A stretch of 56,557 bases of DNA, from assembly GCF_019599295.1 (NCBI RefSeq), contig NZ_JAIEWN010000032.1, forward strand, positions 10,640 through 67,196. Reading direction: 5' to 3'. The notes under the pieces were generated by a model that did not search any database, was not told the origin of the DNA, and saw nothing but the letters and a program-made list of their open reading frames with translations. Shown here piece after piece: positions 13,401 through 31,500 of this stretch (position 1 is the first letter of the stretch; every line of letters starts with the position of its first letter). A program made the position numbers and the translations under genes. Source of the stretch: Oscillochloris sp. ZM17-4 (GTDB lineage Bacteria > Chloroflexota > Chloroflexia > Chloroflexales > Chloroflexaceae).

Positions 13401-16176
13401 CATTCTCAGCATCATCGATCACGCCAATCATTGGGCGCGGGACAGCGGCAGAACGCTGATCATCCCATAGCGCTGTGTCCGTCGTCTGCATCAGCAGCGC
13501 GGCCGCAGGGCTGAGCGCCGACTGGTTCGCGCCATAGTTAAGCCACTGATCATGCGTGAAATGCGAGCGCAGCGAGCGCCAGTGCTCGGCCTGCTCGGGC
13601 GGCGTGCTCGTGGCGGCCTGTTTGTCACGCACCGCCGGCGCGAAAATCTCCTGGGTCAACAAGATCGGGTAGTCGGGGAAGAAGGGTGGCCACGGCGGCT
13701 CTTGAGCGGCAATCCGATCAGCTTTGGCCGTGTTGCTGAGCGTCTCGATCAGCACCCTGGCGAACTGCTTGGGCTCGCCCCAGGCTCGAATATCTTCCTC
13801 CCAGAGAACATCGGCATCAAGCGCCACGTCATCGCTGACCTCCTCGCCAACATAGGCGACCTGGATAAGCTCGATCTCATCGTTACCAACCTGGAGGTAA
13901 CCGCGTCCCGAGACCCCAGGCGGAAGAAAGGCCGCCGCATCGCGGCGCAAAATCTCATTACTCTCTTCGCGCTGCTCTACGCGCAGGCAGATACGATAGG
14001 TAATATTCGAGCGCATCTGGTCGGTTACGCCGCGCGGGCTCTGCGAGGCAAGCAGCAGAAAGACGCCGAGCGAGCGACCGACACGGGTAATCTGCTCAAG
14101 CTGCGATTTGAACTCATCATTGGCCGCCAGCATTTCGGCGAACTCATCAATGATGATCATTAAAAAAGGCAGCGGATTCTTCTCCTGGAAGGCAGAGCTG
14201 TGGTATTTGAGAATATTTTCGATCTTGTCATCGATCGCCTTCGCCGCGCCGATCACCCGCTGGCGCCGGCTGATCTCAGCCCGGATCGCAGTGAACATGC
14301 GCGCCGTGCGCTCGGGCGCGAGGTTAGTGGCCGTCTCGACACAGTGCGGCAGCTGCTCAAAGTCGTTGAAGGTGCCACCGCCCTTGTAGTCGATCAGTAC
14401 AAAGTTCAGCATCGTCGGGCTCGCGTTCAGGGCTAGCCCGGCCACAATCGAGGCCAGCAGTACCGACTTGCCAGAGCCAGTGCTGCCCGCAATCATGCCG
14501 TGAACGCCATCCTGCGAGCGATCCAGGGTCAGCACGCGGGTCTTGCCGCCGACCAGCAGACCGATCGGCACCTGGAGCGGGCCTGGGTGCTTAGTCGAGT
14601 CCTCCCATCGCTCGCGTGCGATCTGCGCCACCTGCTCAGCGACACTTGAGCCGCCGCGCATGCGGAACCCTGTATCGAGTTCACGCAGAAGTACGGTGCG
14701 CGGCAGAGCGGTGCTGGCGCTACGCTGGAGCACCATTGTCCGCATCATGGTGCTAATCGCCGACGCAGCATCACGGTTGAGGGTGTCGGCGGCACCGACA
14801 TAGCGCACACTATTGATCCCAGTCTCAGCATAGCGGAAGACAGCCCCTCCTGGCGCAGGCGCGATCTCGATCACGGCGCTACAGCCATCGGGCACCTGGC
14901 TACGTGTGGGCACGAGAAAGAGAACCGCCGCCCCCAGGTTCGCACCCTCAGACATGGCCATCGCGACGGCCGCATTATTCAGCACCGCATTAATCAGTTT
15001 ATGCGGATTCAACAGATCGATCACGAGGAGGAGCAATGGCAAGCGCGGCGAGTCCTGGTCGCTACTCGATGAATGCTCATCGGCGATACGAATACGACGC
15101 TGTGAGAGGGTACGCCGCAGCGGGTCAAGAAACTGGTCAATCGGCGGCTCATCAACCCCGACCTTTTTCTGGCGACCGTTGGCGTTCTCATCTTCCTCAA
15201 GCGCGGCAATAAACAGATGCTGGGTGCCACCTTCGCCCTGGGCGTGGGGCAGATTGCGCAGCCACTCCCACTCTTGCTCTTGCGCGGCGACGACATGGAC
15301 CTGTGCCTCGACTGGGGCGTGGAAGGCGGCAAAATGCACGAGCAGCGCGCGGGCCGAAGCGTAGACCGAGGCCGAGTCGTCGCCAGGTTCGCCGACGAGG
15401 GCGATGGCGTGGCCGGCGGGGATCTGCATCTGGGGCGCATCGGGAACAGCCGAGTCGCTCTCGCCCTCAAGCGGCGGGCGCAGCCCGATGATCACCGGGA
15501 TCTGGCTGACAAAGCGCGAGTCATCGGCCAGCTTGCGGGCCGCACGCACCTGTGGCGTCTCTTCTTTGTCGTGGCCCGAAAAGACAAACTGCCGGGTTGC
15601 GGGCAGCGTCCCAACACCTAGCCGGATGGCCGCAAAGTCGAGATCGCTACTGCGCCGCTCCCAGAGGCGGATCGGGCTGCGGAGATCGCGCTGGGGCATG
15701 CTGGCGGTCTGACGGCTCGCATATACTAGGCCATTGAGGTCAGCCAGATCCGGGTAGTTATAGGCATAAAAGCGGCGCTGCTGCTCGTGCCCATCGTGCA
15801 TCTCCCGTGTGAGCGCAACCAGCCGATCGTTATACTCGCGCTCAGACTCGGCGTGCCGGCGCGATTCGCGCCGGTAGGTGTAGAGCGCAAATGCGCTCGA
15901 CGCCAGCACCGAAAGCGCCATTGGGATCATCATGAGCGGGCTGCGCGACATGCCGCCGAACGATGAGACCATCACATAGCCGACGATCGTCAGCAGGGGC
16001 AACCCGATCTGGATCAGGCGCGCCTGACCTTCGGGGAAGGGATCGGGAGGCGGTGGGATCTCCACCTCGCCGAGAGGCAGCTGCGGTTGGATGCGCGGCG
16101 GGCGATCAACGGCGATTGGCTGCTCAGGCGTACTGCTGGCAGCAGCTTGAGCAGAAGGTGCATGAGTATCTATCAT
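7486..16176 (-). CDS. eccC-like: Giant EccC/EssC-type FtsK-SpoIIIE translocase with seven P-loop modules
   Basis: The 2,896-residue protein has two N-terminal membrane helices (about 48-95) and an EccC-like N-terminal domain without a working P-loop (GEPGDDSAS). Seven ATPase modules follow, with Walker A near residues 565 (GSTGSGKS), 945 (GAPRSGKS), 1269 (GGTGSGKS), 1620 (GAAGSGKT), 1949 (GGTGSGKS), 2284 (GQPRSGRT) and 2567 (GEPASGRT). Walker B is IIDE only in modules 1, 3 and 5; modules 2, 4, 6 and 7 have IDG. Usual EccC has three modules and about 1,300 residues. By family it is the membrane ATPase that recruits and drives WXG100 substrates. The start is 3 bp after the pseudokinase stop. 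No frameshift is visible. Confidence 0.96.
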   Translation of the reverse strand: MIDTHAPSAQAAASSTPEQPIAVDRPPRIQPQLPLGEVEIPPPPDPFPEGQARLIQIGLPLLTIVGYVMVSSFGGMSRSPLMMIPMALSVLASSAFALYTYRRESRRHAESEREYNDRLVALTREMHDGHEQQRRFYAYNYPDLADLNGLVYASRQTASMPQRDLRSPIRLWERRSSDLDFAAIRLGVGTLPATRQFVFSGHDKEETPQVRAARKLADDSRFVSQIPVIIGLRPPLEGESDSAVPDAPQMQIPAGHAIALVGEPGDDSASVYASARALLVHFAAFHAPVEAQVHVVAAQEQEWEWLRNLPHAQGEGGTQHLFIAALEEDENANGRQKKVGVDEPPIDQFLDPLRRTLSQRRIRIADEHSSSSDQDSPRLPLLLLVIDLLNPHKLINAVLNNAAVAMAMSEGANLGAAVLFLVPTRSQVPDGCSAVIEIAPAPGGAVFRYAETGINSVRYVGAADTLNRDAASAISTMMRTMVLQRSASTALPRTVLLRELDTGFRMRGGSSVAEQVAQIARERWEDSTKHPGPLQVPIGLLVGGKTRVLTLDRSQDGVHGMIAGSTGSGKSVLLASIVAGLALNASPTMLNFVLIDYKGGGTFNDFEQLPHCVETATNLAPERTARMFTAIRAEISRRQRVIGAAKAIDDKIENILKYHSSAFQEKNPLPFLMIIIDEFAEMLAANDEFKSQLEQITRVGRSLGVFLLLASQSPRGVTDQMRSNITYRICLRVEQREESNEILRRDAAAFLPPGVSGRGYLQVGNDEIELIQVAYVGEEVSDDVALDADVLWEEDIRAWGEPKQFARVLIETLSNTAKADRIAAQEPPWPPFFPDYPILLTQEIFAPAVRDKQAATSTPPEQAEHWRSLRSHFTHDQWLNYGANQSALSPAAALLMQTTDTALWDDQRSAAVPRPMIGVIDDAENARQEALTLDLQQGHTLIIGAPRSGKSTLLRTAVVSLAAAHSSAHVHIYLLDLSGTAGLQSLEQLPHVGGRIDSTDSTFLQRVDHLLSELFTVIEQQRAEATKRAENARAKAAESAPAERPWIVVVIDGMAALNREMQRNVDAADGLMSRFMEILQNARDARIRFVIAATQTQDVPAGLMQHLNQKLALRLNDPADYRDLIGVQVRQLLEAPGRGVLARSGRVLQFQVALAAAPRTDLTEPSDSAWIAQFVQRLASAPEMKPSPFRIDAIADKISLDSLLAPVPADARGLPADWSGAHIAWNWRQSLEQIDWPKVRVGVLPGGAPRTLWFHQKQDGVHAIIGGGTGSGKSGLLATLVTSFAIHYDPRILHLALIDFKGGATFDPFRHLPHCVDFVTNARPADVHRVFIAIDAEIKRRANLIKGDRDDIVKYNQAQMGAGKLDEIEPHLFIIIDEYMELVKSNPAFIPEIEKITLLGRSVGVHLIIAAQRPEVNDQMRANMSLKVALHVDDPDASRELLRRTDAAHLPRKPGRGYIQVGLVGQLRLFQAARVDEKVDKDDTAAINLFRKYAESPAQDDLPSLAQHIIDRARDLYYEQHGAAAREFAPWPPQLAHPLGAEQIIYPRYFTGQSGAAPDAAELLRIALSELRNGRQALTLAEPPLRAVVGLVDDPQRGHQDRLVIDLNKGNLIMFGAAGSGKTSFLRVLAANLAAEHRVGQLHIHLIDATGQRDTSLQKLPHTGTCIIDDADVLDRVNQFAQYLYDIITRIQKERQQQEAPAGQAQPMHAQDGPALVVLIDGLSQLFELLEEQPGALERDGIVTRMLGLFDIGPSMRIWFIATDSEPDLRRERKIYRRFPQRMALRLGNTADYQPAIQVSVSDTIDCPGRGYISGPDRKPLPIQMMQLADVSNATSQLGAELRALEAIGASLTQSSAVNVGPQPLRQAALGQSYMMRTMLRERWSLQSNDLTVFMQELEQRVRAGTVAIDQARVDWLAACVGLRSGNRPADLRFDQQQSGVHAMLAGGTGSGKSELLRTLVLDLALRYPPDVLNFALVDFKGGGSFEPFKDLPHCAEFVTNLDAAAVERFFLVLEAEIARRQDLNKQSGCDHIVDFRRKRVTNGADWEYAQEHYPHLFVIIDEYTELIEKYPSSRDRLESLTRVGRSLGISLVLAAQRAAAVTDEMDANIKLRICLRVEQLETSKLLLRRPDAALLPPETPTGRGYIHQGGRTLDLVQVAYPSGPADLIENSPKGSKSEQPPFFALVIGVLDKVYDAFVPRLWPAPLPDAIDLDTPVLDGMQPQPITLVPALAEWLQGTRTGWPATGPAAPTPLIGFYDAPDRRERRPLSFEWDHVAVFGQPRSGRTTLLRTLIMSLAGTYAPQQLHLYIVDSGGSNFADLHDVPHIGAIIGRNEPDFDDRLIRLVNVLEDELQRRQTAFKALNFAAYRIQENADLPAMLVMIDGVATLKERYESLLLRLTEIARQSARYGIVLALTATAMSDIPGVLREQVSRKLVLAMEKAESYKDLLGVSASTFSATPGRGYIVLDLQARMFQIARPPADLRPIIDALRAAAPKVGLAAPIETLSTRYTVDTLRDTLRDALPAETPLATLQIPIGLRDRDRTPALLDTDADGQHIVVAGEPASGRTTTLRTMILTLAMRYAPSQLRIVLFDPSRKLATEANRIAELPHVYRRQVLDDPELLLPLLREQEQRWRAGDARRLAVVIDGFDELIDEISNNRQIKDDAKRNLITLAKRAGDYGITLIGSSGLRMISNDLYKAVRDSAQGVALRSENAIGFLGGLARSDQRLLPAGRATLVLRKVRGAALQIAITGVGQPEDYAALVEQIIARYPEAADLDTSPAVPPPVAPRDSVAAAQLTLLRRGLRQLLDVLIQQSQPLDQAEIQQLLSEYHALSAEPDAAQREQMLRAIGVLTDPQWIKLEDGLRQIFVDDVRAKWLALPLSILTDLLEKQLQP

Positions 16177-16179
16177 GGC

Positions 16180-17214
16180 TCAGAGCATAAAGGCGTTATA
16201 CAGCGTCAGGGCAACCAGCGCGAGAAAGGTCATCCCGAGCAGCGCGATCGTGACATGCAGAGTTGTCGCGCCAGTGAGCCAGCGGTTGGTCCGTGGCTCA
16301 GGAACGACGCCAAACACTTGCTTTAGCTCAGCGGTGAAATCAGCGGCGCTCGAGATCTGCGCCGTCAGCACACGGTTGATGATTGCCGAGAGCTTCGACA
16401 TTGACGGAATGTTGACCGGCGTAGACGCGGGCAGACTGCCGAGCAGCATCTGGGCGAACAAGATCGCCAGGCTATAGAGGTCGGCGTGAGGTGATGACGT
16501 GCTGCCGGGGCGCAGATCTGTGGCACTGTAGGCTGACTGGGCCAGCTGATAGCTCTTATCTGAGATCTGGTCGCCCTTGTGCAGCACCGTGCCAAAGTCG
16601 ATCATCACCACCCGTGGCACATCATCGCCGTCGAAGGTAACGAGCGCACTCTCGTCGGAAATCGCCAGATGGAGCAGCTGCGACTCGTGCAACTCCTGGA
16701 TCGCAATCGCCATACTCTGAGTGATCCAACCGGCGTGGTAGGACCAGAGCTGCGGGCGTTTGCTGAGCAGGTCGCGCAGCGGTTCGCCCTCAATATGCTC
16801 AAACACCAGAAAGTAGAGCAGCGTGTCGTGAATGGCCGCACGCCCATACGACCAGTCATCTTCAGACAGAACCAGCCTTTTCTGCGCATCCTTCGTATAC
16901 GGATCGAGTAGCAGCGGCAGGTAGACCAGCCGATCTTTGCGCTGCGACTTTAAAAACTGCGCCTCATCTTCCAGGTGCTGCTTAAAGCGCTGGCCCGGGT
17001 GGGCCACCTTCAAGGTAACCAACTGGCTGTTGCGCCGAGCCTGATAGATTGTCGCGGCGCGCCCGATCAGCACGACGCGCACAATCTCAAGATTCTCGAT
17101 CCACTCGCCGGGTTCAAGCACCCAAGGCGATTGCTCGGCGGGGCATGTGGCACGCTGACAGAAGGTATTCTGATTGGGATTCGTCTTCCGGCACTCAAGA
17201 CAATGCTGCTGCAT
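16180..17214 (-). CDS. Zinc-ribbon pseudokinase with C-terminal membrane helix (EssB/YukC-like role)
   Basis: The protein has 344 residues. Cysteines at 5, 8, 19 and 24 form a small zinc-ribbon pattern. A protein-kinase fold follows with a VAIK-like TLKVAHPG and a DFG (VVMIDFG), but the catalytic loop reads LLHLAISDESAL, so the HRD aspartate and the asparagine are missing: a likely pseudokinase. The last 25 residues are a membrane helix (VTIALLGMTFLALVALTL). In Firmicute type VII systems EssB/YukC is a membrane pseudokinase that docks on the ATPase; the position next to the EccC-like gene suggests the same job, although the membrane helix is C-terminal. A GTG at 17319 would add a hydrophobic N-terminus; the ATG at 17214 is preferred for its GGGA site and the zinc ribbon right after it. 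Confidence 0.82.
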   Translation of the reverse strand: MQQHCLECRKTNPNQNTFCQRATCPAEQSPWVLEPGEWIENLEIVRVVLIGRAATIYQARRNSQLVTLKVAHPGQRFKQHLEDEAQFLKSQRKDRLVYLPLLLDPYTKDAQKRLVLSEDDWSYGRAAIHDTLLYFLVFEHIEGEPLRDLLSKRPQLWSYHAGWITQSMAIAIQELHESQLLHLAISDESALVTFDGDDVPRVVMIDFGTVLHKGDQISDKSYQLAQSAYSATDLRPGSTSSPHADLYSLAILFAQMLLGSLPASTPVNIPSMSKLSAIINRVLTAQISSAADFTAELKQVFGVVPEPRTNRWLTGATTLHVTIALLGMTFLALVALTLYNAFML

Positions 17215-17324
17215 AAAATATCCCGGCCCGCTCACATGGTGCGGCGCGAGCTGCGAGGCAATCACGCTCACGCTACACCAGAAGGCTAGAACGCAGTAGA
17301 GCAGAAGTAACGCTGTCACTCTAC

Positions 17325-17823: not shown

Positions 17824-18165
17824 CTAGAAGAACCGAGCCTTCTCCTCAAGCCGCCCGCGGATCATCTGATCGGCCTCACGGTCGGCCTGCTCAATGCGGT
17901 CACGAGCCGACTGAATATCGCCGTGCAACTTGGTCAGATTATCGGAGACACGGCCGACACCGGGGATAAAGATCGACGAGAGTTCATCGATAAAGGCCTG
18001 CGCCCCTTTACCGCGCCAGACCTTCTCGACCTCGCCCTGCACCAGGCGCTGGAGCGGAGCAAGCCCCTGCTCAGCGATATCGGCGATCACTTTGTTTAGC
18101 TGCGAGAGCACCTTCTCAAGGACAGCCTTGGCAAGACTGATCAGCACATCCATAAAGACTGACAT
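17824..18165 (-). CDS. esxA-like: WXG100 family protein (true WxG motif)
   Basis: The 113-residue protein forms two predicted helices joined by VWRGKGAQAF, with W50-R-G52 at the expected middle position. This is the only member of the cluster with the canonical Trp. The start at 18165 has GGAGGAG six bases upstream; the frame open to 18246 overlaps the upstream gene and is not used. The C-terminus is rich in charged residues (DREADQMIRGRLEEKARFF) and has no obvious YxxxD/E signal. Expected to be exported by the EccC-like ATPase, perhaps as a dimer with a neighbour. Confidence 0.86.
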   Translation of the reverse strand: MSVFMDVLISLAKAVLEKVLSQLNKVIADIAEQGLAPLQRLVQGEVEKVWRGKGAQAFIDELSSIFIPGVGRVSDNLTKLHGDIQSARDRIEQADREADQMIRGRLEEKARFF

Positions 18166-18181
18166 AACTCCTCCGATTACG

Positions 18182-18478
18182 CTAGCCCATCGAACCCGCG
18201 ACGCTCTCATCCGCAGCGCGCTGAAGATCGATAGCCTTCTGAACATCGCCGGCCAGCTCAGTAAACTTCTCGGTCAGGCGGGTGAGCGAGGGGCTCATCT
18301 GATTACGGATCAGCTCGACGTAGGTGGTGCCCGCCTGTCCCAGTAGGGCGCCATCGCTCATGGTGTTGGCGATACTCTGGAGCTCGGTCATCACATCCTG
18401 GAGATGCTCGGTGCCTTCCTTGAAGGCCGCGACCATCGCCTCACAGTCGGCATAGACGACCTTGATATCCCCATTCAT
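18182..18478 (-). CDS. WXG100-like protein (LxG variant)
   Basis: The 98-residue protein has the WXG100 length and helix-turn-helix layout. The turn reads ALLGQAGTTYVEL, with L45-L-G47 where W-x-G is expected. The start at 18478 has GGGAGAG upstream, and the gene ends 16 bp before the next WXG100 gene, so they are co-transcribed and probably made in similar amounts. It could pair with the 18493-18798 product, which has the same motif spacing. Function as ESX substrate or partner is inferred. Confidence 0.82.
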   Translation of the reverse strand: MNGDIKVVYADCEAMVAAFKEGTEHLQDVMTELQSIANTMSDGALLGQAGTTYVELIRNQMSPSLTRLTEKFTELAGDVQKAIDLQRAADESVAGSMG

Positions 18479-18492
18479 CAGGCTCTCCCTTA

Positions 18493-18798
18493 CTAGTTGT
18501 AGCCCTTACACTGCGACTCGGCCTCAGAGTCGGCCTTCTGAAAGATCTGGCTGACTTCCTTCGTCACCACATTCGCCTCGCTCAGCAGCTCCTGAAGCTT
18601 GCGGACTGAGGGCAGCAAAACATCATCCATCTCGGCGTAGAATGCATCAGCCGCCTGACCCATAAAGCTCCCGCCCTTGAGCGGATCAAGCTTGCCAAGC
18701 AGCATCTGCAACAAGCTTTGGACTGTGTCGGACTGCTTCGCGAAGCGGCTAGACACATCATTCATCTGCTCGTAATTGACCTGAACCTGGTCTGTCAT
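18493..18798 (-). CDS. WXG100-like protein (FxG variant)
   Basis: The 101-residue protein has the turn GGSFMGQAADAFYAEM, with F45-M-G47 replacing W-x-G, and two amphipathic helices. Near the C-terminus IFQKADSEAE gives an FxxxD pattern that may stand in for the YxxxD/E export signal bound by EccC ATPases. GGAGGG precedes the ATG at 18798. It is the first gene of the small-protein cluster, 14 bp before the next one. Confidence 0.84.
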   Translation of the reverse strand: MTDQVQVNYEQMNDVSSRFAKQSDTVQSLLQMLLGKLDPLKGGSFMGQAADAFYAEMDDVLLPSVRKLQELLSEANVVTKEVSQIFQKADSEAESQCKGYN

Positions 18799-18952: not shown

Positions 18953-19183
18953 CTATGGCTCACTGCCGGACAGCAGGCGAGTTGCATGAGAGGTGCCCAG
19001 TGGCGGCGTACCCGCGATCATCTGGTCAAGCGTATCCCGCCGCACCCGCCAGCTGCGGCCGATGCGAAACGCCGGCAGCTTGCCGCTCGTACACCAGCGC
19101 CAGACAGTCGTCTCGCTCACGCGGAGGTAGCGAGCCACCTCCGCGACGGTGAGGATAGCCGGATGAGCCAGCTCTTCAGACAT
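18953..19183 (-). CDS. Excisionase/MerR-type helix-turn-helix protein
   Basis: The 76-residue protein has an HTH_17-type domain: LTVAEVARYLRVSETTVWRWCTSGKLPAFRIGRSWRVRRDTLDQMI. Proteins of this size act as phage excisionases or small DNA-binding regulators. The ATG at 19183 has GGAG eight bases upstream; one at 19207 is possible. It lies 154 bp upstream of the WXG100 cluster on the same strand, so it may regulate it, and it faces the divergent sigma-factor module across a region of inverted repeats. Target unknown. Confidence 0.82.
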   Translation of the reverse strand: MSEELAHPAILTVAEVARYLRVSETTVWRWCTSGKLPAFRIGRSWRVRRDTLDQMIAGTPPLGTSHATRLLSGSEP

Positions 19184-19233
19184 CGCGCGCTCCGCAGTTG
19201 CATACATCGTGCGAGGATCAGCTAGTCACTGTC

Positions 19234-19520
19234 CTATCTGTACCAACCTTCGCCCGATGACTCTTGTCTCATACGCTACCGGCTCTTGCATGAGCCGCCA
19301 CCCCCTCCATCTATCACGCTATCTGTACCAAACGGTCAGTAAAGACTCTCGCTACACTAGACGCAGGCGCTTACATAGTGAAGTCGGCGATGAAAATACA
19401 TAGCTTCCTGTTGTGTCAGGACCGCACCTGAACGGGTTGCAACTCTTATGAGAGACGGCTGTATGCTCCGCAGACTGATGGGGCAATTCCCATTTCATAT
19501 GTCGCCAGCTCTTGCAAGAG
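19234..19520. promoter_or_regulatory. Divergent regulatory region with repeated CTCTTGCAAGAG-like palindromes
   Basis: This gene-free stretch (19184-19674) is lower in GC than its surroundings. It contains a 13-bp direct repeat CTATCTGTACCAA at 19234-19246 and 19319-19331, and three related inverted repeats: GGCTCTTGCATGAGCC (19281-19296), CTCTTATGAGAG (19443-19454) and the perfect CTCTTGCAAGAG (19509-19520). They probably bind a regulator that serves the divergent HTH and sigma genes. A TGTGGATAA (19636-19644) matches one DnaA box but stands alone. Confidence 0.5.
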
Positions 19521-19674
19521 TTTTCAAAAGACAACATAGATCGAGGTTTATTAACTTCAGCTACACAAGCGCACATAGTCATTCATTGTTAATGCCTACA
19601 GCGTATACTCACAACGGATCTTCCAACACCACCCTTGTGGATAACACATTCATATCAGACAGATAGGGGCTGTG

Positions 19675-20445
19675 ATGGATCAGGAAGCGATCACATTCCG
19701 ACGCTGCGCCGACACAGTCGCGTTCTTGAATAGCACTGAGCACTGGGGATTGAGTGAGGAAGAGTCATCGGCGCTGGCCGACGCCGCTGCGGCCTATGTG
19801 TACCCGCAGGGGAGCAACGCACAACTCCGCATGGTGATCACCAATATCCGCCGCGATCTCCCAAGCGTGGAGGCGCTGCGCCGAAGCGGCCACATGGGGC
19901 ACCTCGCGGAGTGGGAGAGCTGGCTGGGGCAGGCCCGGGCCATCCTGCGGCAGGCGAACCTCGACTGGGCATATGACGGCGCGGTAGATAGCGACGACCT
20001 GATGCAGGTCGCCCTGCTACAGCTGGCCCGCTCGCTGCCTGGGTTCCGCTACCAGAGCCGCTTCTCCACATGGGCCTATCAGGTGATCACACAGAGTGTC
20101 CAGCGCCACCTGCGCGATCTGTCCGCCCAGAAGCGCGCCGGCGAGATCGATGGGTCGGTTGATCCGCACACGGTGGCACGCGCGATCGGCGAGGGCGATC
20201 ACCCTGAGGCGCAGGTCGCGGCGCGGCTGCTGACGACCACCGTGGAAGCTGAGCTACTGGCGGCGATGGGCTCGCGCAACGCGGAGGTGTTTCGGCTGTG
20301 GGCCTGCGATGACCTCTCGGCGGAGATGATCGGGCAGCGCGTGGGGCTAAGCGTGGCGCGGGTGTACGCGGTGATCGCCCAGGCCCGCAAACATCTCTCC
20401 GGGCAGGCGGCGATCATTGATTGGGGAGCGGCTACGCGAGGCTAA
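19675..20445 (+). CDS. Sigma-70 family RNA polymerase sigma factor
   Basis: The protein has 256 residues. Region 2 is clear at about 105-150 (DSDDLMQVALLQLARSLPGFRYQSRFSTWAYQVITQSVQRHLR, with the RFSTWAY segment that melts promoters). A region 4-like HTH lies at about 213-243 (EMIGQRVGLSVARVYAVIAQARKHL). The roughly 95-residue N-terminal extension, rich in Ala and Trp, is unusual for a group 4 (ECF) factor. AGGGG lies six bases before the ATG at 19675; a GTG three bases earlier is possible. The next genes encode a zf-HC2-like protein and a TPR-CHAT protein, so it is likely held inactive by the former. Confidence 0.88.
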   Translation: MDQEAITFRRCADTVAFLNSTEHWGLSEEESSALADAAAAYVYPQGSNAQLRMVITNIRRDLPSVEALRRSGHMGHLAEWESWLGQARAILRQANLDWAYDGAVDSDDLMQVALLQLARSLPGFRYQSRFSTWAYQVITQSVQRHLRDLSAQKRAGEIDGSVDPHTVARAIGEGDHPEAQVAARLLTTTVEAELLAAMGSRNAEVFRLWACDDLSAEMIGQRVGLSVARVYAVIAQARKHLSGQAAIIDWGAATRG

Positions 20446-20460
20446 CCCTCGCGGGGTAGG

Positions 20461-20507
20461 AACAAGGCCAGCCAGAAGTTGCAGAGCAACTTCTGGCTGG
20501 CCTTGTT
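20461..20507 (+). terminator. Perfect 22-bp stem hairpin behind the sigma gene
   Basis: Positions 20461-20482 and 20486-20507 are exact reverse complements around the loop AGA, 16 bp after the sigma stop codon. The stem is far longer than a usual intrinsic terminator and has no T-tract (CGTCTG follows), so it may terminate, attenuate or stabilise the sigma mRNA. Confidence 0.65.
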
Positions 20508-20612
20508 CGTCTGATCTGCAATACGCTTTTACGCCAACCCGGTACAGATATTGTAGAATGCAAGACTTAACATAGCGCAGCACCAACACGGATATGGTCA
20601 TGCGCAAGGTGA

Positions 20613-21362
20613 ATGACGATGGATCATCCACAATGTGATCATGTGCGCGCAGCATTGTTGCAGGCGCTCACAAATAGCCACCAGCCGGCACAGACCCCGG
20701 CCCTGGCGCAGCATATCGCGCACTGCTCAGCGTGCCAGGATCTGCGCGCATCGGTGTTCCAACAGCTGCTGCCGAGCAAAGCTCTTCCCGCTGATCCGTG
20801 TGCGCTCTGCCAGCTCGACCTGGCTGCCTATGTGGATATGAACCTTGACGCGGGCACCCACACGGCCGCGCTGGCCTACCCACAGGTCTGGTGGCACCTC
20901 TGGACCTGCCGCGACTGCGCCAAGATCTTCGCGCAGACCGCAGCCCTCGCTGGCGCTGAGCGTGCCGGTGTGCTCACATCGATCCCAGTGGCAAGGGTCA
21001 CGCCGACGAATCCGCGCCACGTGATCGGTCGACTCAGCGTAGCACCACAGGTGGTGGCCCGCTTCATCCAGAGCCGGGCGCTGCTGGGGGTGGCCTACGG
21101 TGATGAGACGCCGATGGTGCTTGATGATGGCGAAGACAACATACACAGCTTCCAGCTGAGCGTGCAGCGGGGGGGGGGCGGCACATGGCAGGTACTGGTC
21201 AGCGTGGTGCCGCCGGTCGCCGGCGTGGCGGTGATCACTGTAGGCCAGACGACCTACCATGTGCCGTTCGACGCGCAGGGGTTCGCCCGCGTCGCTGACA
21301 TGCCCTCCGCACTGCTCCTCGCTGGCGAATCCGCCATCGCCGTCGCGATCGAAGCGGTGTAA
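20613..21362 (+). CDS. zf-HC2-like zinc-binding protein, putative anti-sigma factor
   Basis: The 249-residue protein has two zf-HC2-like clusters, one with HIAHCSAC (about 34-41) and one with HLWTCRDC (about 96-103), plus CALC between them. The C-terminal 120 residues are beta-rich (FQLSVQRGGGGTWQVLVSVVPPVAGVAVITVGQTTYHVPF), with no membrane helix, so it is likely soluble, unlike many anti-sigma factors. AAGGTGA precedes the ATG at 20613. It follows the sigma gene and leads the CHAT gene. Probable job: bind and hold the sigma factor, and serve as target or sensor for the protease (inference). A run of ten G at 21169-21178 lies inside the gene. Confidence 0.75.
   Translation: MTMDHPQCDHVRAALLQALTNSHQPAQTPALAQHIAHCSACQDLRASVFQQLLPSKALPADPCALCQLDLAAYVDMNLDAGTHTAALAYPQVWWHLWTCRDCAKIFAQTAALAGAERAGVLTSIPVARVTPTNPRHVIGRLSVAPQVVARFIQSRALLGVAYGDETPMVLDDGEDNIHSFQLSVQRGGGGTWQVLVSVVPPVAGVAVITVGQTTYHVPFDAQGFARVADMPSALLLAGESAIAVAIEAV
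21169..21178 (+). repeat. G10 homopolymer inside the putative anti-sigma gene
   Basis: Ten consecutive G encode Arg-Gly-Gly-Gly-Gly. A one-base slip would truncate or change the last 60 residues, so the tract could switch the gene on and off, or be a sequencing risk point. Confidence 0.9.
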
Positions 21363-21527
21363 CTCATCCGCAGACAAACCGCACGTTTCCTCGCTCACGC
21401 ACCCCTTATCTCCTCGATCAATCCGCCTCCACCCCGACTGCTGTGTTAGGATAGCTGCACACGCCGGGCCGGCGCTTGCCCTGATGCAGGGTGACACGCC
21501 GGCGCCCCTGCCGACGTACCGCACCGC
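21363..21527 (+). promoter_or_regulatory. Short intergenic space with possible promoter before the CHAT gene
   Basis: The 165-bp space holds TGTGTTAGGAT at 21441-21451, which could be an extended -10 element. No clear -35 box and no strong ribosome site before the ATG at 21528 are visible, so the CHAT start is uncertain. Confidence 0.3.
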
Positions 21528-24443
21528 ATGGATAGAGATCCCACCAACTCGCCCCCGCCACGCTGCACCCGCATCCTCACGATCAGCGACCGCCACCCGC
21601 GCTGCGCCGTCGGCCTCGCTGGCCGACTGCTTGCCGCAACCACACCCGATCACCCGAACTACGCCTGGGCCCAGCTGACGTTGGGCTGGTGCCTGGTGCG
21701 CTGGGAGGATCTGCCCGCGCCGGTGCGGCTGCTCCAGCAGGCGGAGGCGACCCTCGCCGCGCGCGGCGCACGCTGGGGCGCGCTCACGGCGCGCACCGCG
21801 CTCCTGCTCGCCGCGCTGCTCCAGCGCGGCGGGGCGGATCTGCTGGGTGCGTGGGATCAGCTTGCCTCCGACTGGGAGTCCGCTGGATGGCCAATCGAGG
21901 CCGCCCGCGTGCGGATCAGCCAAATGCGTACCCTGAATACCCTTGGCCGTCCGTACGAGGCCCTGGCGCTGGCGACAAGCATCACGCCACTGATCACAGG
22001 GTTGGGTACGCCTGCGGATCATGCGACCCTGACATACGTTGCGGGGACCGCACGGCTTCAGGCAAGCGACTTCCCGGCAGCTACTGCGCTCCTCGGCGAG
22101 GCGGCAGCGGGCTTCCGGCAGCTCCGCCAGCCCGCCGAGCTGGCGAAAGTCTGGTTCGAGCAAGCCCGCGTGGCCTTTTTTCAAGACGATTTCTATGGCG
22201 CACTCGCGCTGCATACGCACGCGCAGGAAACCTTCACCCGTCTGGCCATGCCGCTACGGGCGGCCGTCTGTACCAAGAACATGGGTGCCATCTGGGTGAA
22301 GCTAGGACAGGCAGATCGGGCGATCAGCACACTGCTCGCGGCACGAACACGTATGGCCGCCATCGGGCAGCCCTATCAGGTGGCCGACTGCGATCTCAAT
22401 CTCGGCAATGCCGCCTACCACAGCGGGCTGTATGATCTGGCCTTGGGTGCCTGGCGACGGACGGAAGTCATCTATACGCAGCTCGGTGCCCCAGGTATGG
22501 CCCTGATCAGCCGGCGGAACCAGGCCGAGGCATACATCCGGCTCGGGCAGCTCGACAGCGCCGAGTCCCTGCTCACCGCGCTCGTCGGCGAGGCCACCCA
22601 GATTGGTGCCCACCGCGATCTGCCCGAGATTCTCCAGGGGCTTGGTGAGGTACTCCATGCGCGGGGCGAACCCTCGCGCGCCCTGGGCTACCTTCAGGAA
22701 GCGGAGGCGTTGTTCGCCGCGCTGCCCAACCACCCCGCCGCAGCACGCGCGCGGCTGGCGCAGGGCTGGCTGCACCTAGACGGCGATGATCTGCCTGCGG
22801 CGCGAGGATGCTTCCAGCAGGCGGCGCAGGATCTAGTCAGCAGCCCGCTCTACCACTGGCGCGCAATCTACGGCCTGGGCCGCTGCGCGGACGCGGTGGG
22901 TGAACCGGCGCAAGCGCTGGGACACTACCAGCGCGCCAGCGTGGGTGTCGCAACGCTGCGCCACGCCCTGGCCAATTCGCACGCGTCGAGCGCGCTGTTC
23001 CGCGAGGCAGCGCAGCTCTTCGCCGACGCCATCCGCCTGGCCGCCGCAGGGGGCAACCCCCGCATCGTGCTCCAGCTCTCCGAGCAACAGCGCGCCCTAG
23101 CCCTCCAGCAGCAGATCCGCCGCGAGCCGATCATCCTGCCCCCAGCGCTGCGGGCAGACTACGAGGCACGGAGGGCACGCATGCGCACGCTGGTGGACGA
23201 GGGGGCTGACGGCACCAATCTCGACGCGGCGGTCACGGACTATATCGAGATTCTGCTCCACGGGCGGCACTACAACCCGGCGCTCAGCGAGCTGCCGGCC
23301 CAGGAGCTTGACCTCGCCACGCTGCGGGCCACGCTGTCTGCGCGCTATGGGAATGCGTGGACGGCGCTGATCTACGTGAGCTGCGGCGATGATCTGCTAG
23401 CGCTGAGCCTCGATGCCGAAGGCCTTGATCTGACCCGTACCCCGCTCGACCGCAGCCTACGCCGAATGCTTGACCGGGCCAGTCTGCCGCAATACCGAGC
23501 CTATACCTACCAGGATCTGGCCTTCCAGTCGGGCAAACAGGCCGCGCCATGGGCGGACCTCGCCACGCTCGGCGAGCGGCTCATCCCGCCTGCGGTGCGC
23601 GCCCGGCTCAACTCAACCCACCGCCTGCTGATCGTCCCCGGCGGCCCGCTGCACAGCCTGCCCTGGGCCGCGCTGCGCGTGGATGATCACTGGCTAGTGG
23701 AGCGAGCAGTTATCCAGCTTCTACCTAGCCTCCAGAGCTGGCCAGAGCTGGCGCGGCGCACGCCGGCGGGGGGCGATGCGCTGCTGATCGGGGTCAGCCA
23801 GTTCGCGGGGCGGGCGGCAGCGCTGCCGAGCGCCATCCCCTCGCTCGACCTTGTGCAGCGCCACTGGCCGAAGGCAGTGCGCCGTATGGAGGACGGGACG
23901 ATAACCCGCGCGCAGCTCCGCACGGCGGCGGAGACAGGCGATCTCCAGCGGTATGGACTCATTCACATGGCCACCCACGGGCAGCAGGTGGCGGGGCGCG
24001 GGCTGCTGGCACACCTGAAGCTGGCCAACGATGACCTGCTGGTAGATGAGGTGGCCGACCTGCGACTTGGAGGGGCGCTAGTGGTGCTGGTCGCCTGCGA
24101 GGGGGCTGTGGGCGAGACTCTGCCGGGCGAAGAGCTGCTCAGCCTGAGCCGGGCGCTGCTGGCGGCGGGGGCAAGCGACGTGATCGCGAGCCTCTGGCAT
24201 CTCTACGACCTAATGGTGCTGCCGCTGCTGGAGCCGCTGTACGCGGCGCTGGCGGCGGGCATGGACGCGCCGACGGCGCTGGCCGAGGCCCAGCGCGCCT
24301 GCATCGCGGCAGGGCGAGAAGGTGAGGGGAATCTTCTGGCGTGGCCGATCGTGTGGGCAAGCCTGTGCGCCCTCGGCGCGGGGGCCTGGGCGCTTGCGCC
24401 AGCGGGTGGCGCCACGCCCACTGACGTGGTCCGTCACCAGTGA
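21528..24443 (+). CDS. TPR-CHAT caspase-like protease
   Basis: The protein has 971 residues. Residues 45-500 are tandem TPR helices (repeats such as AWQLTLGWCLV, LNLGNAAYHSGLYDLALGAW and QGLGEVLHARGEPSRALGYL-type units). The C-terminal 330 residues form a CHAT domain with LLIVPGGPLHSLPWAAL, the catalytic His in HMATHG (H817) and the catalytic Cys in VLVACEGAVGE (C857), then GASDVIASLW. CHAT peptidases are caspase relatives that cut specific partners when the TPR part is triggered. The dyad is intact. Gene order sigma, zf-HC2, TPR-CHAT suggests that the protease cuts the anti-sigma factor to free sigma (inference). The start is weakly supported: no ribosome site. Confidence 0.92.
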   Translation: MDRDPTNSPPPRCTRILTISDRHPRCAVGLAGRLLAATTPDHPNYAWAQLTLGWCLVRWEDLPAPVRLLQQAEATLAARGARWGALTARTALLLAALLQRGGADLLGAWDQLASDWESAGWPIEAARVRISQMRTLNTLGRPYEALALATSITPLITGLGTPADHATLTYVAGTARLQASDFPAATALLGEAAAGFRQLRQPAELAKVWFEQARVAFFQDDFYGALALHTHAQETFTRLAMPLRAAVCTKNMGAIWVKLGQADRAISTLLAARTRMAAIGQPYQVADCDLNLGNAAYHSGLYDLALGAWRRTEVIYTQLGAPGMALISRRNQAEAYIRLGQLDSAESLLTALVGEATQIGAHRDLPEILQGLGEVLHARGEPSRALGYLQEAEALFAALPNHPAAARARLAQGWLHLDGDDLPAARGCFQQAAQDLVSSPLYHWRAIYGLGRCADAVGEPAQALGHYQRASVGVATLRHALANSHASSALFREAAQLFADAIRLAAAGGNPRIVLQLSEQQRALALQQQIRREPIILPPALRADYEARRARMRTLVDEGADGTNLDAAVTDYIEILLHGRHYNPALSELPAQELDLATLRATLSARYGNAWTALIYVSCGDDLLALSLDAEGLDLTRTPLDRSLRRMLDRASLPQYRAYTYQDLAFQSGKQAAPWADLATLGERLIPPAVRARLNSTHRLLIVPGGPLHSLPWAALRVDDHWLVERAVIQLLPSLQSWPELARRTPAGGDALLIGVSQFAGRAAALPSAIPSLDLVQRHWPKAVRRMEDGTITRAQLRTAAETGDLQRYGLIHMATHGQQVAGRGLLAHLKLANDDLLVDEVADLRLGGALVVLVACEGAVGETLPGEELLSLSRALLAAGASDVIASLWHLYDLMVLPLLEPLYAALAAGMDAPTALAEAQRACIAAGREGEGNLLAWPIVWASLCALGAGAWALAPAGGATPTDVVRHQ

Positions 24444-24735: not shown

Positions 24736-25830
24736 TTAAGAAATATCAAAGCTGCCAGTTGCTGCTTCAAGCGCCTCTATCAGCGCAACGATATCGCGGT
24801 GCAGCGCGGCGCGCTCCTCGTCACTTAGCTCAGCCATGCGTGGGTGAAGGCGCTTGAGATCTTTGGCCGTGCGGGCGAGCTTGTCGCGCAGCGGCGGTAG
24901 CCACTGTGGCGCGCGGGCCGAGGGTGTGGCCTCGGCCCGACGCACTCCTGCCAGCAGGCGTCCAATGGTCGTGAGATCAACACTCGCAGCCACACGATCA
25001 CCGCTGGAGGCAAGGGCAATGGATCGCTCGCGGATCTGTCCTAGCACCGTGTCAACCTGATCGGGGCGCAGCTCCCCAGCCCGCACCGCCCGGTGTAGCG
25101 GCTCGATTTGGTTTTCACGCAGGCGTAACTGCGCGATAGCCTGCTGCTGCGCATTCGTGAAGGCGAGCAGCCGGGTAAGCTCATGTCGCCGCGTGCTGCT
25201 GAGGCGGAAGCGACGCTCTACCTCCTCCCAGGGCGCGTCGCCGAGGGCATCTTTCATCTGGAGTAGCGCCCAGGCCCGCTCCATGTCGGTGAAGTCAGCC
25301 CGATCTTCGTTCTCGGCGTACTGTACCTGGACGCGCTCGGCTGGCGAGGGTGGGTCAACAACGATGGCGTCAAGCGCTGCGATACCAGCTGTAGTCGCGG
25401 CGAGCCAGCGCCTGTGGCCGATGAGAATCAGGTAGCTCGCCGCAGTGTAGTGCTCGCTCGCCCCCGGGTACACGATGATCGGCTGGATCTGCCGCTCTTG
25501 GAGCGAGGCCCCCAAGTCACGCAGTTCGCCCATCAGCGCTGTGTGCGCGGGAGGAACTTCGCCCTCGCGGAGCAACTCTTCGGGGAGTGGGAGCAGGCGC
25601 GGCTGCCGGAACGCAGGGCGCAGATCTGGGGCGATGAGCTTGACGCTAATCTGCTGCACGGCCCGCCCGGCGGTCACCGTATCCAGCGCCATGATCCCAA
25701 AGTGGCTCGTGATCGCGCCCTGGCTGGCGGCTGTCTCTTCCGCCTCAGGGGTGGCAGCGAGATCGGGGCGGCGCAGGGCCGCCGCGTTCTCACGGATCGT
25801 CTTCAGGCGGTCGTCATTCTTGGATGCCAT
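24736..25830 (-). CDS. parB: ParB-family partition protein
   Basis: The protein has 364 residues. The ParB N-terminal CTPase/nuclease-like domain spans about 55-190, with the conserved box LILIGHRRWLAATTAG (about 132) and NEDRADFTDMERAWAL. A central HTH region follows (FRLSSTRRHELTRLLAF) and a helical C-terminus for dimerisation. The start codon overlaps the parA stop (TGATG), so the pair is translationally coupled. It should bind a centromere site (parS) and load the partition complex for ParA. The long divergent N-terminus fits accessory-replicon rather than chromosomal ParB. Candidate parS palindromes lie upstream of parA. Confidence 0.92.
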   Translation of the reverse strand: MASKNDDRLKTIRENAAALRRPDLAATPEAEETAASQGAITSHFGIMALDTVTAGRAVQQISVKLIAPDLRPAFRQPRLLPLPEELLREGEVPPAHTALMGELRDLGASLQERQIQPIIVYPGASEHYTAASYLILIGHRRWLAATTAGIAALDAIVVDPPSPAERVQVQYAENEDRADFTDMERAWALLQMKDALGDAPWEEVERRFRLSSTRRHELTRLLAFTNAQQQAIAQLRLRENQIEPLHRAVRAGELRPDQVDTVLGQIRERSIALASSGDRVAASVDLTTIGRLLAGVRRAEATPSARAPQWLPPLRDKLARTAKDLKRLHPRMAELSDEERAALHRDIVALIEALEAATGSFDIS

Positions 25831-26636
25831 CAGCGCTGACCATCGAGCTTGATCAGCTCGCCTACGAGTTGGAGGAAGAGGGCGCGGGACTCGGCGACAT
25901 CGGGGCCGCTGTAGTGAAAGATGTCCTGGCGCACTGCAACCGAGTCTCGCAGGGCTGCCCGGACTGGGATAACGGTGTCGAGGAGCAGATCACGATATTC
26001 ATCGCGCAGGAGCTCATCGTACACGCGATCCGCGCCGCTGCGCGGCATGTACTTATTGCGGAGTACGCTGACCTGAAGCTGTGGGTTGACCTTGCGCACG
26101 CGCACCTGCGTTACGGAGTCCATTAGGGCCACGAGCGCACGGATAACCAGATCCTCAGACTGCACTGGGGCTAGGCAGCGCGTGGCGGCGGCTAGAGCCA
26201 TGCCCAAAATAGGGCTGCGCGCGGGCGGGAGGTCGAGAACGGCCACATCGTAGGGGATCGGGTGATCTGGGGAGTCGAGTGCCTCCGACAAAAGAAAGAT
26301 CCCGCCGAGGGTCGCGGCATTGAGCAGGGAAGGGAGGCTCGCCATCTGCGGGTGAGCGGCGAGCACATGAACGCCACCGGTCGTAGGGATCGCACGGTCG
26401 GTAATACTTTCTGTGCGCAGCTGGCCGGCGATGGCCTCGTTAAACACCCCAAGGGCGCTGCGATCAGCAGGCATGGTTGTGACATCGATGCCGAGCCAGT
26501 GGGTCGCGCTGGCCTGGGCATCGAGATCGACCAAAAGAACATCGAGCCCCGCCTGCTGAAAGGCGGCGGCCAGATTCACAGAAAGGGCGGTCTTCCCGAC
26601 CCCGCCTTTCTCAAGCGCCACAGCATAGGTGATCAT
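25830..26636 (-). CDS. parA: ParA-family partition ATPase
   Basis: The 268-residue protein has a deviant Walker A motif EKGGVGKTALSVNLAAAF at its N-terminus, VLLVDLDAQASATHWLG as the A' motif and VAVLDLPPARSP as Walker B, which define ParA/Soj-type ATPases. It lacks an N-terminal HTH, so it resembles the short type Ib group, where the partner protein often represses the operon. A GTG two codons upstream is possible; the ATG at 26636 is kept. With ParB it should segregate this replicon. Two palindromes with GGGTGCGC arms lie 107-207 bp upstream of the start. Confidence 0.94.
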   Translation of the reverse strand: MITYAVALEKGGVGKTALSVNLAAAFQQAGLDVLLVDLDAQASATHWLGIDVTTMPADRSALGVFNEAIAGQLRTESITDRAIPTTGGVHVLAAHPQMASLPSLLNAATLGGIFLLSEALDSPDHPIPYDVAVLDLPPARSPILGMALAAATRCLAPVQSEDLVIRALVALMDSVTQVRVRKVNPQLQVSVLRNKYMPRSGADRVYDELLRDEYRDLLLDTVIPVRAALRDSVAVRQDIFHYSGPDVAESRALFLQLVGELIKLDGQR

Positions 26637-26742
26637 CAGCACATGCTCCGTTCCGGTGTGGGTAGCGTTCGTTGTCTGAGCATATCGCGTGCGAAGGGCA
26701 GGTCAGATCGCGGTTTAGCGCATCTGAATGCTGGAAAAGGGG

Positions 26743-26763
26743 GGGGTGCGCTGAGCGCACCCC
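26743..26763. promoter_or_regulatory. Palindrome upstream of parA (copy 1), candidate parS or operator
   Basis: GGGGTGCGC-TGA-GCGCACCCC is an exact inverted repeat with 9-bp arms, preceded by more G. The same core returns 81 bp further on, about eight helical turns away, and no gene lies between. Position upstream of parAB fits a centromere or operator. Confidence 0.55.
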
Positions 26764-26824
26764 GGGCGTATGACGAATAGAGGTCGAGTCGCATTGTACG
26801 GCATCCTGATGCGCTATCGGGGGG

Positions 26825-26843
26825 GGGTGCGCTGAGCGCACCC
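26825..26843. promoter_or_regulatory. Palindrome upstream of parA (copy 2), candidate parS or operator
   Basis: GGGTGCGC-TGA-GCGCACCC repeats the first palindrome exactly and is also preceded by a G run (26819-26827). It lies 7 bp past the stop of the Xre gene, so one copy could also act as its terminator stem. Confidence 0.55.
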
Positions 26844-26849
26844 TGATGG

Positions 26850-27206
26850 TCACGATGAGCGGGGCGAAGGCTGATCGAGCAGTCGCTCTAGCGCTGCCAG
26901 CATCGGCGGGAGCAGGTCGGGGTGCTGCTCCAGGGTTTGTGTGAGTAGTTGCACTGCCTGGTGCTGCGCGCTTCGCCGCTGCTCCTCAAGCAGGGCTGCG
27001 GGCGGGATGCCCAGCACATCGGCCGCGCGGGTCAGGGCCACCGCCGTCATGGCCCGCTCGCCAGACTCCCATTTGGCAACCGTCGAGCGATCCACCCCCA
27101 GCGCCTGTGCGAGATCTCCCTGGGTGAGCACGACGCGCAGTCGAGCTGCGCGGAGGCGCTCACCAACTTGCGCATCGATGCTCGCCTCGCCAGTGCGCCC
27201 AGTCAT
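26850..27206 (-). CDS. Xre-family helix-turn-helix regulator
   Basis: The 118-residue protein has a Cro/CI-type HTH at residues 12-70 (VGERLRAARLRVVLTQGDLAQALGVDRSTVAKWESGERAMTAVALTRAADVLGI). The remaining 45 residues are helical and may dimerise. Its ATG overlaps the stop of the antirepressor gene (ATGA), so the two are coupled. It probably represses a promoter of this replicon, perhaps through the palindromes at 28.08-28.19 kb. Confidence 0.92.
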   Translation of the reverse strand: MTGRTGEASIDAQVGERLRAARLRVVLTQGDLAQALGVDRSTVAKWESGERAMTAVALTRAADVLGIPPAALLEEQRRSAQHQAVQLLTQTLEQHPDLLPPMLAALERLLDQPSPRSS

Positions 27207-28063
27207 ATCAGCTGCTCCTGGTGCGGAGGCAGAGCGTCCGGGTCATCAGGGAGCAACGTTGCGGCCTGCTGATGCAGCCAGGCAAGTGCGCGGTCGTATT
27301 TGCTCGCTGGGAGCGCATCATACCGTGGGATACCCATGTCGATCTTAAACTGAGCGAATAGCCGCTCGTAGGTGTTGATCGTCGTATTGGTGCGCTGCTG
27401 GTAGCGGATGGCAATCCGCTTGATGGCCCGCTGGATATACTCCGCTTGGACCGCGCTAATTTTCACGATCTGTCGCAGATCCTCGACCACATCCTCAACT
27501 GTCTGTAGCCGGTCGTCGATCGAGCCAACCTGCTCGCGCGTCGCATGCTGCTCGGCGAGGCTGGCAAGGAGCACATCCCGAAGGGTGCGGAGCTCACGTA
27601 CAGTGGCGGCCAGCTGCTGATGGATCTCGGTGGGAATGAGGGCGGTGTCTGTGGTGGCCGGCGGGTTTAGCGGCAGCGTAGGGATAGCGGGGCCATAGAG
27701 CGCGTTCAAAACAACGACGAGCTCTTTTTGGTAGCGTACGAGCTTCGGGCGCACATCATCGCGCACCTGGCTTGGGGTGATTGTCGCGAGCCAGAAGGCG
27801 ATGTGGGTGTGCAGGATGGCCAGCACCGAGCGGATACGACCGCCGATAGGGACTTTGACCACGCGGAGGCCCTGGGAGAGCACATCATGCTCGCGGAGAC
27901 GATCGCTCTGCGGTTGGGTGGCAAGCCCGAGGGCATCGCATACAAGGCGGATGGGGACTGCGACCCCCTCGCCTTCGAGCACCGCAGCAATGATCTCATC
28001 GCCATCAAGATCGACGCTCTCAATACGGACGGGGCGCTGCGGAAGCTCCGGCAGATCGGTCAT
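27203..28063 (-). CDS. Phage-type antirepressor (P22-AR N-domain, ORF6C-like C-domain)
   Basis: The 286-residue protein has an N-terminal P22_AR_N-like domain (VAVPIRLVCDALGLATQPQSDRLREHDVL, then VLAILHTHIAFWLATITPSQV and VRPKLVRYQKEL). A coiled-coil middle follows, then a C-terminal ORF6C-like helix pair (IQRAIKRIAIRYQQRTNTTINTYERLFAQFKIDMGIPRYDALPASKYDRAL). Such proteins bind phage repressors or DNA to change developmental state. The ATG at 28063 follows GGAG at a good distance; the frame open to 28102 has no site. Being coupled to an Xre gene, it is probably its partner. It suggests phage ancestry for this replicon. Confidence 0.85.
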   Translation of the reverse strand: MTDLPELPQRPVRIESVDLDGDEIIAAVLEGEGVAVPIRLVCDALGLATQPQSDRLREHDVLSQGLRVVKVPIGGRIRSVLAILHTHIAFWLATITPSQVRDDVRPKLVRYQKELVVVLNALYGPAIPTLPLNPPATTDTALIPTEIHQQLAATVRELRTLRDVLLASLAEQHATREQVGSIDDRLQTVEDVVEDLRQIVKISAVQAEYIQRAIKRIAIRYQQRTNTTINTYERLFAQFKIDMGIPRYDALPASKYDRALAWLHQQAATLLPDDPDALPPHQEQLI

Positions 28064-28078
28064 ACAATCTCCATAACA

Positions 28079-28190
28079 TGTGGCGTAATGCCACAATAGC
28101 ACAGGTGATCAGGTGCGTCAAGGGTGAAGGTGGCGTTCCGCCACCTTGGATACAGCAAGTGATCTATCGAACGTGACGTTCCGCCACATT
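28079..28190. promoter_or_regulatory. Three operator-like palindromes before the antirepressor gene
   Basis: TGTGGC-GTAAT-GCCACA (28079-28095), AAGGTGGCG-TTC-CGCCACCTT (28127-28147) and a half-degenerate third with GTGACGTTCCGCCAC (28173-28187) share a GTGGCG half-site. Their centres are about 50 and 43 bp apart. They lie between dnaB and the antirepressor/Xre genes, so they may be the Xre operators. A TATTGT -10-like box overlaps site 1. Confidence 0.6.
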
Positions 28191-28228
28191 GATCGCACTG
28201 CGACATAGCATATGTTCTGGCATGAATC

Positions 28229-31125: not shown

Positions 31126-31392
31126 AGACCAATCCTTCTCTGCCGAATAGCGGCAACACAAAGCCGAGCCCTGTCGGCTTCCGCGTTGACAAGGCGATCA
31201 GCGGTCGATATACTAGAAGCGCATAGGCCACCCGCTTGACGTCACCACCCTTCGGTGTGCTGGACGTTCCGGCAGTGGGCGGATTTTGAAGGGCTCTCGA
31301 CGGCTTGGCGGCTTGGCGAGGGCCTTTCGCATGCCCACCGTTTGGTGCCTGGTGGTGTTACTTTCCTATACCAGTTATGCGGATACAGTTCG

Positions 31393-31458: not shown

Positions 31459-31500
31459 AGTGCGATTCGGCTTCCTAATGCTGTAAATCTGTGATCAGTA

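Follow-up and report, generated by a model that had tools for sequence, protein, structure and literature searches.

The subject of this analysis is a 56,557-nucleotide stretch of contig NZ_JAIEWN010000032.1 from the filamentous, phototrophic bacterium Oscillochloris sp. ZM17-4 (hereafter the window), which carries three consecutive genes on its + strand: a sigma factor gene (19672-20445, 257 aa open reading frame (ORF)), a gene for a zinc-finger protein that is a putative anti-sigma factor (20613-21362, 249 aa ORF; hereafter the inhibitor), and a gene for a TPR-CHAT protein (21528-24443, 971 aa ORF). We read the locus as a CRISPR-free variant of the known theme of protease-controlled anti-sigma factors, with a concrete predicted regulon. 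Its best overall explanation, to which we assign a probability of about 0.5, is a protease-relieved anti-sigma circuit with two targets, a divergent type VII-like secretion operon and the inhibitor-CHAT genes. The computed evidence for this consists of the linkage and co-occurrence of the genes, the intact catalytic dyad and Csx29-like fold of the CHAT protein, and an element shared by both targets in several genera.

We infer that the sigma factor reads the shared element and is bound by the zinc-finger protein, that one transcript covers inhibitor and CHAT, and that CHAT cuts the inhibitor upon a signal. In such a circuit, a dedicated soluble zinc-finger anti-sigma factor would hold a sigma factor of the extracytoplasmic function (ECF) type. 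The TPR part of the third protein would sense a cytoplasmic signal or partner, and its CHAT domain would cleave the anti-sigma factor and relieve the sigma factor, like Csx29 acting on Csx30. Free sigma factor would recognise CAAGAGTC-N14-GGTACAGAT and transcribe both rightwards, into the inhibitor gene and the CHAT gene behind it as feedback, and leftwards, into a secretion operon encoding helix-turn-helix (HTH), WXG100, kinase and FtsK proteins. The outcome would be a rise in inhibitor (negative feedback) and in CHAT (relief, provided that it cuts the inhibitor), and an active secretion operon. We put forward more tentatively the wider proposal of a CRISPR-free switch in multicellular Chloroflexales, in which a stand-alone TPR-CHAT protein senses a cue, cuts a two-zinc-finger anti-sigma factor and activates type VII-like secretion and a cell-surface regulon.

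The three proteins and their linkage in relatives

The first protein belongs to the sigma-70/ECF family as judged by regions 2 and 4: it matches TIGR02937 at 69 bits (cut-off 42.9; 3.6e-19) and Sigma70_r2 at 37.7 (cut-off 24; 1.7e-9), and its region 4 scores 20.3 with Sigma70_r4_2, under the cut-off of 25.7. A profile built from its relatives matches E. coli sigma-E (1or7) at 1e-13. About 90 residues precede region 2; this N-terminal extension, which the first-pass annotation had called unusual, is present as described and turns out to be common to the whole subfamily rather than specific to this gene.

The inhibitor, a cysteine-rich protein, contains two H-x3-C-x2-C motifs of the zinc-binding anti-sigma (ZAS) type, at residues 34-41 and 95-102, the second of which is kept and nearly invariant in relatives. 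It therefore carries, in two copies, the zinc motif that marks ZAS/zf-HC2 anti-sigma factors. It has no Pfam zf-HC2 match over cut-off, and the NCBIfam RsrA/anti-sigma models match it weakly (0.003). The earlier description of a soluble zf-HC2 protein is thus borne out by the motifs and by a chain with no evident membrane span, and not by the Pfam family itself. An AlphaFold model (pLDDT, the predicted local distance difference test score, 89) has an all-helical half that holds the zinc motifs, a linker at about residues 118-135 and a C-terminal beta-sandwich at 136-249. Foldseek returned no significant match for the model; a second structural aligner (VIA) placed the beta-sandwich nearest the MATH/TRAF-C domains of SPOP and USP7 (Z 8-9, 6-10% identity), a modelled resemblance to MATH/TRAF folds that is only suggestive. 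Gene order makes the protein a putative anti-sigma factor that would bind and inhibit the adjacent sigma factor.

The third protein combines a TPR array, which makes up about half of its length, with a CHAT domain (PF12770, 7.8e-41). The Cys857/His817 dyad is intact, with both residues exactly where they had been placed, and is invariant in 26 of 26 relatives. Together, the PF12770 match and the dyad assign the protein to the CHAT/caspase-like proteases, and we regard it as a putative cysteine protease. Its AlphaFold model (pLDDT 89.5) finds Csx29 as the best fold in the PDB (8eey, 1e-15), followed by separase and DdvA, and its catalytic His and Cys align with those of Csx29 and DdvA.

When the triad was searched for in other genomes, the linkage of sigma factor, inhibitor and CHAT proved to be kept beyond chance. 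Related sequences come from Oscillochloris, Candidatus Chloroploca, Candidatus Viridilinea and Herpetosiphon (loci of related genomes compared with the window carry L-numbers). Where the contig reaches far enough, the inhibitor gene is almost always immediately preceded by the sigma gene, and a TPR-CHAT gene adjoins the pair in about half of the loci, either downstream, at times overlapping the inhibitor gene, or divergently. The inhibitor family is present in 27 of 100 relatives: 23 genomes have both it and the TPR-CHAT subfamily, 4 + 4 have one of the two and 69 have neither (P 1e-14), and the same count by genus within the order gives 13/3/1/17 (P 1e-5), both P values being inflated by shared descent. 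Among 301 genomes of the phylum, full-length inhibitor proteins are restricted to the order of the window's genome. A scan of seven genomes found 14 of 99 CHATs within 6 kb (≤6 kb) of a sigma gene, versus 4 expected, and 13 of these 14 belong to the 28 strongest CHAT matches. Genome contigs were also scanned with a pattern from a narrower CHAT alignment, the inhibitor and full CHAT alignments being too variable for this purpose.

The trees of the proteins also bear on their partnership. Across 13 full triads, the mirror-tree distance correlation is 0.71 for inhibitor and CHAT versus 0.56 for sigma factor and CHAT; within Herpetosiphonaceae the values are 0.45 (P 0.007) and 0.10 (P 0.29). By these correlations CHAT tracks the inhibitor more closely than the sigma factor, which fits a protease/substrate pair but is not proof of one. 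Draft-genome completeness, assembly breaks and shared ancestry weaken all of these statistics, and the Chloroploca genomes are so closely related that together they amount to roughly one lineage.

The sigma-inhibitor pair and CHAT need not be neighbours. Two seemingly lone CHATs (L076, L077) have more divergent sigma/inhibitor-like genes nearby, and a third (L085) has a sigma-like gene only. L078 (1313-8856) encodes a full-length TPR-CHAT protein with no sigma/inhibitor pair detected, adjoining genes that by eye look like a Wadjet-type (JetABC) system. In L058, L066, L067 and L069, which are of Herpetosiphon and Kouleothrix types, two sigma/inhibitor or CHAT sets stand side by side, which suggests that the module has been duplicated repeatedly. 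Another Oscillochloris locus (L061, 548-7327) has a short inhibitor-like ORF about 1.4 kb from a Csx14/Csm6-like gene with a weak Cas10-like gene near, a setting that hints at type III CRISPR close by.

A shared bipartite element and the predicted regulon

The three genes had been described as a row with nothing between them. The row on one strand stands; between the sigma and inhibitor genes, however, lie a hairpin and a promoter-like element. The hairpin is a perfect 23-bp inverted repeat with the loop AGA (20460-20508, strand unassigned; fold z -7.2), and resembles a terminator or insulator but has no T tract. We rejected it as a repeated element: nowhere else in the genome does its arm recur in closely similar form. 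Strong hairpins of different sequences occupy the same sigma-inhibitor position in the Chloroploca loci L035 (5803-5906), L036 (6854-6960) and L037 (6854-6949). Given the hairpin and promoter-like element between the sigma and inhibitor-CHAT genes, the three genes do not form a single simple operon, and since hairpins follow the sigma gene in the window and in these Chloroploca loci, the sigma factor is probably transcribed separately from inhibitor and CHAT. No standard sigma-70 promoter was found between 18700 and 21700.

Alignment of the sites defines the element, CAAGAGTC-N14-GGTACAGAT, as asymmetric and bipartite with fixed spacing. The window has three copies. One, CAATACGC-N14-GGTACAGAT (20519-20549, + strand), lies 63 nt before the inhibitor gene. 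The other two are on the - strand in the same orientation: an exact copy (19236-19266, 0 mismatches), which lies 28 nt upstream of the HTH gene heading the divergent secretion locus, and CGAGAGTC-N14-GGTACAGAT (19321-19351), with 1 mismatch. The string GGTACAGATA occurs 3 times at the locus, where shuffles give 0.02 expected, and 5 times in total in the 6.69-Mb genome; one of the locus copies precedes the inhibitor gene and two face the secretion cluster, and the same string also precedes the inhibitor gene in L034-L037. The spacers of the element copies differ, and the copies are therefore not a recent duplication.

A matrix built from six sites, with the Chloroploca secretion-side copies outside the training set, found copies at 27-31 bits before a divergent YukD-like-WXG100-FtsK operon (L035, L037) and before a PP2C-VWA/FHA-kinase operon (L036); the best matches in shuffled window sequence reach 6-10 bits. 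At ≤3 mismatches, Chloroploca genomes have 16-18 matches versus 0-1 for a reversed-pattern control, and the window's genome has six versus two, three of the six being at the locus. Most Chloroploca matches at ≤2 mismatches fall 3-240 nt upstream of a same-strand ORF start. The family's other genomes show no enrichment (0-2 matches at ≤2 mismatches, near the control level). Viridilinea halotolerans carries the element 72 nt before the WXG100 gene of a WXG100-kinase-FtsK cluster orthologous to that of the window, and a second copy next to this cluster, on the same contig, where it precedes a different gene. Its asymmetry, constant spacing, promoter-like distance from genes and occurrence mainly alongside the sigma-inhibitor clade make the element most likely the sigma factor's own promoter. 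The first-pass proposal that the sigma factor drives the nearby divergent ESX locus thereby gains independent support, to the extent that the sigma factor would be what reads the element.

That locus occupies the - strand. It is led by an excisionase-type HTH_17 protein (18953-19207), whose gene diverges from the sigma gene and also adjoins it in L042, L045, L048 and L089, and continues with a WXG100 protein (18493-18798), two WXG100-like proteins (18182-18478 and 17824-18246), a protein kinase-like protein (16180-17319) and a 2896-aa FtsK/SpoIIIE (EccC-like) ATPase (7486-16176), the predicted target operon; a VWA-FHA protein (4398-6704) and a protein kinase (1169-2443) also belong to the secretion cluster. 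With both WXG100 proteins and an FtsK/SpoIIIE ATPase, the system is type VII-like. The ATPase contains seven FtsK-type stretches and is of unusual size for an EccC-like secretion ATPase.

The predicted products of the genes behind the Chloroploca elements are a LuxR-type regulator, an M23 peptidase, a CHAP-domain protein and surface proteins with RCC1 repeats, besides further proteins whose N-termini look like signal sequences. The sigma targets are predicted to be secretion and cell-surface genes; the defence role suggested by the first-pass annotation found no support. In two of these stretches (L171 1-12814, L174 1112-13395), RCC1-repeat and carboxypeptidase-regulatory-like surface proteins of 1469-2277 aa stand in tandem, each behind an element. 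The open literature we searched yielded no regulator of type VII-like secretion in Chloroflexota, and the circuit, if real, would supply a regulatory handle on it.

Possible roles of the CHAT protein and of the element

CHAT may plausibly cleave the inhibitor, given the Csx29-like fold, the co-occurrence and the mirror-tree signal. The main rival explanation makes CHAT the output: the sigma and anti-sigma factors would answer another signal, for instance redox or zinc acting on the ZAS motifs, while CHAT would be a target, a protease effector co-expressed with secretion. We consider this unlikely, though several observations favour it. The CHAT gene follows the inhibitor gene, and upstream of it lie the sigma-type element and the hairpin that parts it from the sigma gene; Chloroploca has the pair and the regulon without a CHAT in cis; and soluble ZAS anti-sigma factors, according to PMC8999054, usually answer oxidative signals. 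It fits less well that CHAT and inhibitor co-occur genome-wide even if unlinked, that their mirror-tree signal exceeds that of sigma factor and CHAT, that several loci transcribe CHAT divergently from the sigma-inhibitor pair, and that Csx29 and CalpL provide precedents for proteolytic relief. The promoter logic of sigma factor and element would be unchanged if CHAT were the output. A very unlikely variant has the TPR-CHAT protein control the sigma factor non-proteolytically, as a scaffold or inhibitor-binding partner: the TPR array takes up so large a share of the protein, and a PDB title names the CHAT-domain protein DdvA of Myxococcus as itself an anti-sigma factor, but a dyad invariant in every relative compared is hard to explain without catalysis. 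The element, for its part, could be the operator of another regulator such as the HTH_17 protein, with the sigma factor merely nearby. The HTH_17 gene adjoins the sigma gene at five loci, the window's included, and sites close to a regulator gene could be that regulator's own operators; against this, the Chloroploca loci L035-L037 have the element and no adjacent HTH_17 gene, and the element is asymmetric and bipartite, keeps one spacing and sits about as far from start codons as a promoter would. We find this reading quite unlikely.

Several observations weigh against the protease-relieved circuit itself. The mirror-tree signals are partly due to shared ancestry. Chloroploca pairs with the element have no adjacent CHAT, which is found only elsewhere in the genome; one Oscillochloris genome encodes a CHAT of 76% identity yet lacks the sigma-inhibitor pair, and in L039 the CHAT gene is decayed beside an intact inhibitor gene. 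The inhibitor-side element of the window has three mismatches in its upstream box. A Viridilinea sigma factor for the element there was looked for and not identified, and a search of other sigma clades gave no convincing shared element of the same geometry.

Known sigma switches and the genomic setting

The closest known arrangement is that of type III-E CRISPR systems (CASP/Craspase), in which Csx29 (TPR-CHAT), Csx30 (inhibitor) and CASP-sigma are encoded together and positive autoregulation of the locus has been reported (PMC10028731). The window likewise encodes a TPR-CHAT protease candidate, an inhibitor and an ECF sigma factor together, with Csx29 as the top fold match and the catalytic residues aligned. 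It differs in its predicted targets, a secretion system and envelope proteins, and in its zinc-finger inhibitor, for which no sequence similarity to Csx30 was detected (a sequence-profile comparison of the inhibitor profile with PDB sequences matched no Csx30 chain). The TPR-CHAT protein scores 26.4 bits with the Csx29 equivalog model, whose cut-off is 300. With this score, no nearby CRISPR array and an inhibitor that differs in sequence, the locus is not a CASP member. The earlier remark that the same parts occur here without CRISPR agrees with our finding no CRISPR array in the window, the genome not having been searched for Cas7-11.

Other precedents involve fewer shared parts. ECF54 sigma neighbourhoods conserve CHAT, subtilase or carboxypeptidase proteins, and control by proteolysis has already been proposed for them (Casas-Pastor 2021, as cited in PMC8999054); in that account ECF54 is described without an anti-sigma factor, whereas here a dedicated ZAS protein follows the sigma gene. 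ECF270 and ECF271 have soluble ZAS-type anti-sigma factors, as here, and the ECF271 type sequence comes from the same phylum, Chloroflexi; the same account, as far as it was available, mentions no CHAT link for either (PMC8999054). The likeness to these groups is drawn from their published descriptions. In DdvS/DdvA of Myxococcus xanthus (PDB 8rot, 8rw5; PMC4374960), the ECF anti-sigma factor itself carries a CHAT domain, which aligns with our TPR-CHAT profile at 8e-7; DdvA is one transmembrane protein, whereas the window encodes the inhibitor and CHAT as two proteins, both apparently soluble. We found no paper in the open literature on the DdvA structures. In the type III CRISPR system CalpL/CalpT/CalpS, a protease cuts an anti-sigma factor and frees the sigma factor (PMC11229360), but CalpL is a Lon-family protease with a SAVED sensor, not a TPR-CHAT protein.

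Given the ECF54 proposal and DdvA, the idea of a CHAT-controlled sigma factor is not new. What appears new, as far as the open literature was searched, is the tie in Chloroflexales between TPR-CHAT and an inhibitor that is a separate protein with ZAS and beta-sandwich parts, together with a predicted promoter and a secretion/surface regulon. If the circuit holds, the Csx29-Csx30-sigma module would be one CRISPR-captured case within a wider family of proteolytic sigma switches, and stand-alone versions would bear on the origin of the CRISPR protease-sigma switch. With promoter and targets both predicted, the complete circuit lends itself to reconstruction in E. coli, read out by a reporter.

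PADLOC matched no defence model in the window except for a weak TPR match. Downstream of the triad, the region 24736-31775 contains ParA/ParB, a P22-type antirepressor, a DnaB helicase and six iteron-like direct repeats of about 40 nt (31494-31775), a content that suggests a mobile replicon, such as a plasmid, as the carrier of the locus. This region is followed by a GmrSD-type restriction gene.

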